Part shown: one piece after another, positions 18,112 through 21,433 of the stretch
How positions within the stretch are numbered: the stretch's first letter is position 1
Layout: each line of letters opens with the position of its first letter
Assembly: GCA_013696315.1 (NCBI GenBank)
Contig: JACCYU010000037.1
Span: 1-43,253, forward strand
Origin: Gammaproteobacteria bacterium
GTDB taxonomy: Bacteria > Pseudomonadota > Gammaproteobacteria > JACCYU01
Reading direction: 5' to 3'
DNA length: 43,253 nt
The notes under the pieces: generated by a model
What the model saw: only the letters and a program-made list of their open reading frames with translations
The model's database searches: none
What the model was told of the DNA's origin: nothing
Program-made: the position numbers and the translations under genes

Positions 18112-19290
18112 ATGACTTCGTACCCCGCGCCCGAGGCCGGCATGGCGATGAGAATGCGCCAGATCCGTCCCTTTCACGTGATGCGGTTGCTGGCGCGCGC
18201 CCAGGCGCTGGAGGCGGCGGGCAAATCCATCATCCACATGGAGATCGGTGAGCCGGATTTCCCCACCGCGCGGCCTATCGTGCAAGCCGGCGTGCGCGCG
18301 CTTCACGATGGCCACACGCACTACACGCCGGCAGCCGGCCTGCCTGCGTTGCGCGAGGCGGTGGCTCTGTTTTACCAACAGCGATATGGCTGCGACATCT
18401 CGCCCCAGCGCGTGGTGATTACCACCGGTGCCTCGGCGGCATTGCAATTAATCTGCGGCGTGCTGATCGATCCCGGCGACCGGGTGCTTATGGCTGATCC
18501 CGGCTATCCCTGCAATGCTAACTTCGTGCGGCTGTTTGGCGGTGAGCCACATTGCATCCCCGTCGACGCGGCTAGCGATTATCAGTTGAACACGTCCCTG
18601 CTACGAAAACACTGGGGCAGATCGGTGGCCGGCGCGTGGCTGGGATCGCCTTCGAATCCGACCGGTACGTTGGTCTCCGAGCCCGAGCTGCGCGCGATGA
18701 TCGATTACTGCCGTGAGAGAAGCGGATTCGTGATCGTCGACGAGATCTATCACGGGCTGACCTACGAAATCTCGCCCCAGAGCGTGGCAGCGATGTCGGA
18801 TGACGTGTTCGTCGTCAACAGTTTTTCCAAATATTTCGGCATGACCGGCTGGCGCCTGGGCTGGATAATCGCGCCCGAACGCTTCGTGCCCGGAATCGAA
18901 AAGCTCGCGCAGAACATTTACCTCGCGCCGCCGACACCGGCGCAGCACGCCGCGCTTACCGCGCTTAAACCCGCCACCATCGATATTCTGGAGAATCATC
19001 GCGAGGCTTTTAAGCGCCGCCGCGATTTCCTTGTGCCGGCACTGCGCGAACTCGGCTTCGACATCCCGATTACGCCACACGGCGCGTTTTATCTGTACGC
19101 GAACTGCGCGCGTCTGACCGACGACAGCTTCGCCTTCGCCGAGCGCCTGCTGAACGAGTTCGGCGTCGCCATCGCGCCCGGCATCGATTTCGGCAACCAC
19201 CGCGCCGCGCAGCACGTACGCTTTGCCTACACCACCTCAATGGAACATCTGCATGAGGGCGTGAAGCGGTTGGCAAAAGCGCTTTTGTAG
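18112..19290 (+). CDS. Pyridoxal-phosphate aminotransferase, class I/II
   Basis: The product of about 392 residues has the fold type I signatures: HMEIGEPDFPTARPIV, TTGASAALQLICGVLIDPGD, LGSPSNPTGTLVS (Asn pairing with the cofactor), and NSFSKYFGMTGWRLGW with the Schiff-base lysine. The C-terminal FAYTTSMEHLHEG carries the substrate carboxylate region. The exact amino donor cannot be read; such proteins are often annotated as aspartate/tyrosine-type. The frame opens with TTG at 18079; I prefer ATG 18112, though ATG 18142 has a better-placed GAGG. Its TAG stop codon lies inside the first REP element, so the REP probably trimmed or set the C-terminus. Confidence 0.86.
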   Translation: MTSYPAPEAGMAMRMRQIRPFHVMRLLARAQALEAAGKSIIHMEIGEPDFPTARPIVQAGVRALHDGHTHYTPAAGLPALREAVALFYQQRYGCDISPQRVVITTGASAALQLICGVLIDPGDRVLMADPGYPCNANFVRLFGGEPHCIPVDAASDYQLNTSLLRKHWGRSVAGAWLGSPSNPTGTLVSEPELRAMIDYCRERSGFVIVDEIYHGLTYEISPQSVAAMSDDVFVVNSFSKYFGMTGWRLGWIIAPERFVPGIEKLAQNIYLAPPTPAQHAALTALKPATIDILENHREAFKRRRDFLVPALRELGFDIPITPHGAFYLYANCARLTDDSFAFAERLLNEFGVAIAPGIDFGNHRAAQHVRFAYTTSMEHLHEGVKRLAKALL

Positions 19291-19310
19291 TCGGCAATCC
19301 CTTGCCGACT
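19287..19310 (+). repeat. REP element a
   Basis: Palindrome with arms TCGGCAA / TTGCCGA around TCCC. The head is GTAG with one G shared with the arm. The stop codon TAG of the aminotransferase lies within it. It pairs head-outwards with the inverted element at 19323. Confidence 0.75.
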
Positions 19311-19322
19311 GTTTGTATATAC

Positions 19323-19346
19323 GTCGCGAAGGGATTCGCGACCTAC
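19323..19346 (-). repeat. REP element b (inverted, second type)
   Basis: On the minus strand this reads as a GTAG head followed by arms GTCGCGAA / TTCGCGAC around TCCC. It is the opposite partner of element a, forming a REP pair with a 12-base spacer. Confidence 0.75.
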
Positions 19347-19377
19347 GGTTACTACGGAAAGAATGTGGACAGCTTCC

Positions 19378-19403
19378 GTAGGTCGGCAATCCTTTGCCGA
19401 CAT
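19378..19403 (+). repeat. REP element c
   Basis: GTAG head, then perfect arms GTCGGCAA / TTGCCGAC around TCCT, then AT. It stands alone about 110 bases before the start codon of the HExxH gene. Confidence 0.75.
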
Positions 19404-19513
19404 AAAAAATACGACAATAAGGTTCTCCAGTCCTTGTGCGGAATTTCCGGTTCAGGATATAAGAGCAAACTCGCGTATTTCGCGCGGAAAACAACATTAA
19501 GGAGGCAGCAACC

Positions 19514-20655
19514 ATGCGTGCGTTAGGCATTTCACTATCAGGGTTCCATTTATCTCTCAAGCATAAGCCGGCACAAATTTGGACAGGTAGGTCGGCAATC
19601 CCTTGCCGACATCAGAAGATAAAGGCGCCGCTTCTGGCGCTCGCGGCGTTGGCCGTTTTCGGGGCGGGGGGAGTAATAGCTCCTGATGCGCACGCAGCCT
19701 CGGCCCAGCAGACCTTAAGAGCCCGTCCCCTCGCCCCCACCGACATAAACCTCTTCAGTCCCGTCGCTTACCCGGACGCGCCGCCGCTGGTTCCCGCGCA
19801 AGGTCATGAGCTGGACATCAACGAAGCGTACATCGCCATTACCCAATACTTCAAGAATGATCGAAGCAGGCGGCAGCGCGCGCTGAATCTTTTCTATAAC
19901 GAAGACCTCATGCAGCGGATTCCGAATCACTCGCTGCGGGCGGGCTTGACGGGCCTGCTGGGCACTATCGGCGAACCGGCGACTAATTTCATTCTGAACG
20001 CGAAGACGCCCGCAGGCCTGCCCAAGGTGTTCGCCATCGATTTTGATGCCAATCCTTTTAATCCTTCCGATACAGGCATTGCGAGATCAATAAGGAATCC
20101 CGATACGGAACAATTGGCGTCGTTTTCAATCCCAAGTATAAATTTGAAAATCCATTCCTGTTTACAAATATCATCGCGCATGAAGCTCTTCACTCTGATC
20201 CCGCACTCTCTGATTTAGAGGAAGTCATTAATGTCGCGTTAGACACCAGTATCCGCTTGGAGCAACTCGCCAAGCATCCGGAACTGGCTGTTACCGGCAC
20301 CGAATTAGCCCGGCGCGACAACACTAATGCTTTAGCGCGCTTGAACTCCGGCACGGGCGCGAAACTCGGGTTGTTCGCTTCTAATGGCAACCAGCCAATT
20401 TTACCGGGAAGCCCGCTGACCTTCACAAGCTGGTTCGATCAACTCGATCAACTCGATCAATCGGCTGACCTGACGCCGACGCCAGGCGACCCGCTGCTGC
20501 GGCAAATACTCCTCAGGCTGAGGGAGCGCGGCAAGGTTTCGGTAAAACCGAACTTCGACATGAAGACGCTCAGGTTCATCGACAAGAACAGCCGAAACCT
20601 CACGGCGCAGGAGCTGGTTAGGGCCGCCAAAGCACTGAAGTTGCAGCTGCCATAA
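19514..20655 (+). pseudogene. Secreted HExxH protein of unknown family, frameshifted
   Basis: A very good AAGGAGG ribosome binding site precedes the ATG at 19514. Frame 2 gives a leader, a signal peptide (KAPLLALAALAVFGAGG then DAHAASA) and a helical domain (INEAYIAITQYFKND, LRAGLTGLLGTIGEPATNF). Frame 2 breaks down after about 20095. Frame 1, open from about 20062, then continues the same protein: GTIGVVFNPKYKFENPF, FTNIIAHEALHSD, and a helical C-terminus ending at 20655. The HEALH at 20179-20193 is a zinc-protease type HExxH motif. Joining the frames needs one missing base near 20080-20110. A REP element encodes part of the leader, between start codon and hydrophobic core. I do not recognise the family; a secreted metallopeptidase is a guess from HExxH alone. 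It could also be one intact gene with a sequence error. Confidence 0.55.
19587..19612 (+). repeat. REP element d, inside a coding leader
   Basis: GTAG head, perfect arms GTCGGCAA / TTGCCGAC around TCCC, and AT. It lies 73 bases inside the HExxH reading frame and is translated as TGRSAIPCRHQ between the start codon and the signal-peptide core. Confidence 0.75.
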
Positions 20656-20658
20656 TCC

Positions 20659-20684
20659 GTAGGTCGGCGATCCTTCGCCGACAT
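20659..20684 (+). repeat. REP element e
   Basis: GTAG head and arms GTCGGCGA / TCGCCGAC around TCCT. Compared with the other copies both arms have changed by one base so that pairing is kept, a compensatory change. It lies four bases after the stop of the HExxH gene. Confidence 0.75.
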
Positions 20685-20722
20685 GCGCCGGTTGATCCTA
20701 TCGCCGAGGACGCGGTCGTCAA

Positions 20723-20746
20723 GTCACGAAAGGATTCGCGACCTAC
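20723..20746 (-). repeat. REP element f (inverted)
   Basis: Minus-strand GTAG head with arms GTCGCGAA / TTCGTGAC; the one difference in the second arm still allows a G-U pair in RNA. It pairs with element e, 38 bases away. Confidence 0.72.
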
Positions 20747-20768
20747 GGCTCTGCAACTGCCGTGACAG

Positions 20769-20794
20769 GTAGGTCGGCAATCCCTTGCCAACAA
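20769..20794 (+). repeat. REP element g
   Basis: GTAG head and arms GTCGGCAA / TTGCCAAC, with one mismatch. It pairs with element h. Confidence 0.7.
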
Positions 20795-20805
20795 TCATCC
20801 AATAA

Positions 20806-20829
20806 GTCGCGAAAGGATTCGCGACCTAC
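20806..20829 (-). repeat. REP element h (inverted), 3' side of the transposase gene
   Basis: Minus-strand GTAG head and perfect arms GTCGCGAA / TTCGCGAC around TCCT. It lies 15 bases beyond the stop codon of the RAYT gene. Confidence 0.75.
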
Positions 20830-20844
20830 ATCGGTCCGATCGCA

Positions 20845-21354
20845 TTATTCCAGATTCATGCTCTTCAAATCATCTGGTTCGGTTTCTCCCCAGTCCGCGG
20901 TGTAAACCCCGCGCTTTAGCCACTCGGCGAAGCTGGTATGCGGGTAATCGAGCGGGCGCCGGCAATAGCCATGCTTGACCGGGTTGTAATGGATGTAATC
21001 CAGATGCCGGGCAAAGTCCTCATCGTCGCGGATCACGTGGTCGTAATACCTTTTCTGCCATACGCGGGCAGGAGTCTGCGCGCTATCCTTAAAATGCCAG
21101 GTTACGTCTCGCTTGACCGCGGCAACGATCCGAGGAAGGTCGTTCGGAATAGTCGGTTCCAACATCCAGTGCAGGTGATCCGGGAGAACCGCATGGGCCA
21201 CGTGGCGGAACGGGTACAGCGTTTTGACCCTGCGCATTGAGCTGAGGAGCGTATTGACCGCCGCGTCATTCGTAAGCCAGCATTTTCGATCGTAGGTCAC
21301 GATAGTGATAAAGACCGCATGGCCGGGTAGGTAATAGCGCCGGTAGTCAGGCAT
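20845..21354 (-). CDS. REP-associated tyrosine transposase (RAYT)
   Basis: The 169-residue product has the Y1/HUH nuclease fold of the IS200-related RAYT family. The divalent-metal motif is VLPDHLHWML with His60 and His62, and the catalytic tyrosine lies in DYIHYNPVKHGY (Tyr120 or Tyr123). Other family marks are YRRYYLPGHAVFITIVTY at the start, VWQKRYYDHVIRDDEDFARH, and the C-terminal WLKRGVYTADWG. I chose ATG 21354 because the family begins near PDYRRYYLPG; upstream codons to 21393 would read through a REP element. RAYTs bind and cut REP palindromes at the GTAG head and are thought to spread REPs while being domesticated single-copy genes. REPs lie directly on both sides of the gene. Confidence 0.93.
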   Translation of the reverse strand: MPDYRRYYLPGHAVFITIVTYDRKCWLTNDAAVNTLLSSMRRVKTLYPFRHVAHAVLPDHLHWMLEPTIPNDLPRIVAAVKRDVTWHFKDSAQTPARVWQKRYYDHVIRDDEDFARHLDYIHYNPVKHGYCRRPLDYPHTSFAEWLKRGVYTADWGETEPDDLKSMNLE

Positions 21355-21366
21355 CGTGTTGTTTAA

Positions 21367-21390
21367 GTCGCCAAAGGATTGGCGACCTAC
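21367..21390 (-). repeat. REP element i (inverted), 5' side of the transposase gene
   Basis: Minus-strand GTAG head and perfect arms GTCGCCAA / TTGGCGAC around TCCT. The arms are intermediate between the two main types yet fully self-complementary. It sits 12 bases before the RAYT start codon, so it may lie in the leader of its mRNA. Confidence 0.75.
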
Positions 21391-21407
21391 CATTTCCTGT
21401 TGTAATT

Positions 21408-21433
21408 ATAGGTCGGCAATCCTTTGCCGACAC
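21408..21433 (+). repeat. REP element j
   Basis: Head ATAG (one change from GTAG) and perfect arms GTCGGCAA / TTGCCGAC around TCCT. It is the outermost element, just past the stop of the dienelactone hydrolase gene. Confidence 0.72.

Follow-up and report, generated by a model that had tools for sequence, protein, structure and literature searches.

The locus described here raises the question of whether a transposase gene and the dense group of palindromes around it are the source of all related repeats in the genome. The window, by which we mean the whole contig that was analysed (43,253 bases, JACCYU010000037.1 of assembly GCA_013696315.1), belongs to a gammaproteobacterial draft genome of 3.05 Mb (3,045,675 bases in 280 contigs, 96% complete). 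The initial annotation had described ten palindromes within 2.15 kb, nine with a GTAG head and one with an ATAG head, in both orientations, and all ten are located at 19286-21431 as 24-base REP elements that surround a gene for a REP-associated tyrosine transposase (RAYT), with the consensus GTAG-GTCGSSAA-TCCY-TTSSCGAC. Their order and strands are a+ b- c+ d+ e+ f- g+ h-, the RAYT gene on the minus strand, i- and j+. The three facing pairs of that annotation are likewise present, lying tail to tail with their heads outward: a (19286-19309, plus strand, 31.7 bits) is paired with b (19323-19346, minus, GCG stem), e (20659-20682, plus, GGC stem) with f (20723-20746, minus, GCG stem) across a 40-base spacer, and g (20769-20792, plus, GGC stem with one broken pair) with h (20806-20829, minus, GCG stem) across a 13-base spacer. 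Elements c (19378-19401, plus, 47.5 bits) and d (19587-19610, plus) have GGC stems, while i (21367-21390, minus, GCC stem) and j (21408-21431, plus, ATAG head, GGC stem) form a head-facing pair that the annotation had not listed. REPs flank the RAYT gene on both sides, h lying 15 bases past its stop codon and i 12 bases upstream of its start; these two share the same orientation, and the nearest oppositely oriented elements are g and j.

The palindromes exhibit the features by which REPs of the GTAG superfamily are recognized, namely the GTAG head, a short perfect stem, a short loop and many, mostly intergenic copies, and the pairs a-b and g-h additionally have the arrangement of REPINs, in which tail-to-tail REPs with a short spacer form a unit. 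Across an alignment of 25 copies, 96% of stem cells are paired compared with 85.6% in shuffles, stem changes on both sides number 17 compared with 6.4, and all slid versions of the stem score far lower. The inner pairs 13-24 and 14-23 alternate between GC and CG, and these compensating swaps support the stem. When folded as single-stranded DNA, a-b, g-h and the common dispersed pair each yield two separate hairpins; e-f folds otherwise than a-b and g-h. Element d falls within the first codons of a signal-peptide-like frame with a HEALH motif (19514-20655), a frame that a frameshift near 20080 interrupts. The idea that this broken gene is a passenger of the RAYT/REP system was considered and rejected, since it matches no family and has a counterpart in none of the 143 genomes sampled from the class.

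The gene between h and i occupies 20845-21354 on the minus strand and encodes 169 residues, including the His60 and His62 already named in the annotation as well as Tyr120. Its product passes the NCBI RAYT model NF047646 (138.9 bits, cut-off 80) and matches PF01797 (26 bits, cut-off 23); the IS200 model yields only 13.8 bits, far below its cut-off of 55. The best match among solved structures is E. coli TnpA-REP (PDB 4er8, E 7.2e-23), whose HUH motif and Tyr115 align to H60/H62 and Y120. Judged by these matches, the product is a RAYT, a TnpA-REP-like transposase of the HUH/Y1 type. Several candidates for a second RAYT that might have served as a source were rejected: C196:5625 is a mere 36-residue fragment, the C68 gene of G001, a genome of the same genus, is of the IS200 type, and C6:3297 of this genome and the C127 gene of G001 fall in a distant class of 230-aa proteins that lacks adjoining REPs. 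This class of HUH transposases of about 230 residues (G001 C127:68-754; C6:3200 in this genome) is common in the class sample, where it has no adjoining REPs of the cluster's family. Carriage by a plasmid was also rejected, the best plasmid RAYT being just 40% identical, as was carriage by a phage, the five viral contigs with the REP motif being devoid of a RAYT. These five viral-filed contigs (L174-L178) are possibly host DNA or proviruses.

In a search of 84,980 species genomes, the closest RAYTs found share 47-57% identity with that of the window. Together with two proteins from Thioploca, two from gammaproteobacterial or proteobacterial MAGs and one from Wenzhouxiangella (L027-L031), it forms a clade supported at 100/99 in one tree and 99/97 in another. 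At the loci of four of the five relatives (L027-L030) the same motif occurs in 4 to 9 REPs each, and the fifth (L031) has a looser version; with a REP model from this genome, the best copies beside four of the five score 30-44 bits, and RAYT loci outside the clade give weak matches only. The shared motif beside the closest RAYTs shows that gene and repeat are paired throughout the clade. Such a link is expected, Nunvar and colleagues having described how each RAYT is coupled to a REP type of its own (PMC2817692). Among the 143 class genomes, the REP motif is confined to this family apart from one single site in G042, a member of another family, whose one perfect REP (C9:27216-27238, L160) stands alone, with neither further REPs in its vicinity nor a close RAYT.

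A whole-genome count of the palindromes, as the initial annotation had proposed, was performed with both pattern and model searches. Allowing up to 2 mismatches, the pattern identified 24 sites versus 0 for a reversed control pattern, and a covariance model built from the copies returned much the same sites plus a few weak ones. Ten of the 25 counted copies lie within 2,150 of the 3,045,675 bases (binomial P ~1e-25 under an even spread); the concentration of REPs around the RAYT gene is not a matter of chance. Most dispersed REPs are tail-to-tail pairs with spacers of about 5 bases, and REPINs with 5- to 8-base spacers are found on contigs C79, C81, C96, C193 and C33. The REP on C159 is situated 26 bases from the junction of a segment of about 1.4 kb (118-1548 of L010) that is missing from the matching stretch of G001 and carries the frame of a glycine-rich repeat protein.

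The history of the locus was examined in two relatives, the congener G001 at 99% completeness and the family-mate G002 at 78%. A RAYT of this clade was found in neither of these two genomes, and the pattern search identified 11 REP sites of the cluster's family in G001 and 4 in G002. The locus is syntenic in all three genomes, with the aminotransferase and hydrolase genes convergent. The G001 intergene comprises about 550 bases without a RAYT and, in the position of j, contains a single decayed REP, which scores 25.2 versus a maximum of 15.1 in 2000 shuffles. That of G002 spans about 100 bases and has a degraded match where i would lie (plain shuffles, P 0.004 for i alone and 0.019 for i-j; ungapped scan, P 0.027), which is suggestive of a relic of REP i. 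Together, the decayed REP and the suggestive match indicate that this spot already had REPs before the species diverged, the RAYT having been lost from both relatives or having arrived later beside them. At the other end of the cluster, one G is absent after the head of REP a, so that head and stem merge (GTAGTCGGC), and its GTAG provides the TAG (19288-19290) with which the reading frame of the upstream aminotransferase stops. At the place corresponding to 19279-19290 of the window, the G002 aminotransferase ends at the same codon with TGA and that of G001 extends about 20 residues further, and from this comparison REP a appears to have landed on the end of the gene. Elsewhere, the C81 pair is missing from its syntenic place in G001; for C193, C226 and C159, shared insertion sites in G001 and G002 were not established, as the flanks were misaligned at the REP or rearranged.

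We consider it very probable that the locus is a REPtron, i.e. a RAYT with its cognate REPs, representing an old family-wide system of which the RAYT was kept only in this genome, where the REPs multiplied locally. The RAYT of this clade and its REPs would already have been present in the family ancestor, and presumably this genome kept the gene while G001 and G002 lost it, their REPs persisting and decaying. Counting against this reading, some 25 copies is a low number for a REP family, the match in G002 is no more than suggestive, and completeness of that genome is 78%. Furthermore, the absence of the RAYT from G001 and G002 may also mean a later gain in this genome. We tentatively retain such a recent gain as a possible, if less probable, history: the RAYT, REPs a-h and the small broken gene would have been acquired horizontally, between the aminotransferase and hydrolase genes of this species and beside an older i-j pair, and would account for the local pile only. 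It would be consistent with the presence of a RAYT of this clade in just one of the 143 class genomes, with its absence from a congener and a family-mate, with nearest relatives in other families (Thioploca), with the lower G+C content of the RAYT (55.9%) and the broken gene (55.1%) relative to the window (61.4%), with cluster stems unlike the dispersed ones, and with a published precedent in Thauera (PMC2817692). However, the dispersed REPs of all three genomes share the head and loop of the clade, so that an earlier cognate RAYT is needed anyway, and the RAYT-less congener has its decayed REP exactly at the position of j.

The proposal of the initial annotation that this is the source locus of the genome's REPs draws only partial support. 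That 40% of the copies are local agrees with it. By the same annotation, REPs in strains without a RAYT at this locus would refute it and, taken to the letter, G001 and G002 are such strains. The stem subtypes differ as well: GGC or GCG inner stems occur in 9 of 10 cluster REPs, compared with 5 of the 15 others in this genome and 2 of the 12 in G001 (Fisher P 0.012 for cluster versus elsewhere, 0.0019 for cluster versus G001 and 0.41 for elsewhere versus G001, values that are descriptive because the contrast was noticed before testing). GCC/GGG stems and 5-base spacers characterize most of the dispersed pairs, as they do those of G001 and G002, whereas pairs in the cluster have GGC/GCG stems and spacers of 13 or 40 bases. 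On account of these differences in stem and spacer, the majority of dispersed copies resemble an older population common to the relatives rather than offspring of the cluster, and it is quite improbable that this locus gave rise to every REP in the genome. Exact copies of c/j-type stems do exist at C79, C96 and C159, and of the h stem at C81, whose pair, missing in G001, is either newer than the split or was lost there; some spread from the cluster is therefore possible. What can be rescued is a weaker claim, which the decayed REP in G001 fits through loss of the RAYT there: the REPs of the family would owe their spread to an ancestral RAYT of the clade, and the local pile would have been built or maintained by the present gene. 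The two subtypes are distinguished by swaps, each compensated, at two inner pairs of the stem, and it is conceivable, albeit rather unlikely, that a single RAYT has both a linked GGC/GCG and an older dispersed GCC/GGG population, with the enzyme now preferring the linked one. Finally, the position of the block between two convergent genes, its perfect stems and its 4-base loops might recall plain transcription terminators with a RAYT nearby by coincidence, a scenario made scarcely credible by the invariant GTAG head, the constant loop, the occurrence in both orientations, the lack of a T-run and the identical motif adjoining related RAYTs in other families.

Binding, cutting and joining of REP hairpins are known for the enzymes of E. 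coli, S. maltophilia and Marinomonas. By analogy, the RAYT of a REPtron such as this would bind REP hairpins formed in single-stranded DNA, reading the GTAG head and the loop, and would cleave beside the hairpin via its tyrosine before joining strands. REPs and tail-to-tail REP pairs (REPINs) might thereby be copied or moved, mostly near the gene. TnpA-REP itself binds the single-stranded GTAG strand of the hairpin and cuts at an adjacent CT or CA, with the 5' phosphate held on the tyrosine and then passed to another end (PMC8266576).

The system is a REPtron and hence of a known kind, and it leaves the accepted picture of RAYT/REP systems unchanged. What it contributes is a pairing of RAYT and REP that extends over several gammaproteobacterial groups. 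With the gene kept once, missing twice and the repeats persisting, it also offers a natural comparison for how long REPs outlast their transposase, and if the enzyme did now prefer the linked subtype, the locus would document, in nature, a change in the REP specificity of a RAYT. The motif was not found spelled out in the literature searched: a text search for the head-and-stem letters, outside of which fell consensus tables printed as figures, returned only a Thioalkalivibrio REP whose outer stem is the same but whose loop differs, plus unrelated primer-like matches.

That REP, from Thioalkalivibrio sp. HL-EbGR7 (GTAGGTCGGCCTTCAGGCCGAC; PMC2817692 Table 1; GTAG-5 family, PMC3733652), resembles those described here by its GTAG followed directly by a perfect GTCGGC stem, although its loop and inner stem read CTTCAG rather than AATCCYTT, in a comparison made on the REP sequences. 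E. coli TnpA-REP/RayT (4er8) shares the HUH motif and tyrosine, the YRRYY start, the WQ.R and NPVKHG motifs and a C-terminal extension of similar length, yet it is only about 34% identical and placed elsewhere in the tree, and E. coli REPs have a bulged stem whereas those of the cluster are perfect. The RAYT may belong to group 2 (E. coli-like) or to group 3: in a tree without group 3 reference proteins it does not join E. coli TnpA-REP, and perfect palindromes are the REP type of group 3. Tail-to-tail REPs forming a unit with a short spacer recall the REPINs of Pseudomonas fluorescens (PMC3116915), which however number hundreds of copies as opposed to tens here. Partner REPs differ in stem and are thus heterodimers as in PMC3733652, where GTAG REP families, heterodimers with differing stems and REPtrons have all been described. 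Local accumulation of REPs beside rayt genes has been published for Marinomonas (Ma/Mb) and Thauera (PMC2817692, PMC8266576), and the REPtrons of these species similarly concentrate cognate GTAG REPs in alternating orientations around the RAYT; they differ in RAYT clade and REP sequence, and the present system is set apart by its second, older dispersed subtype.
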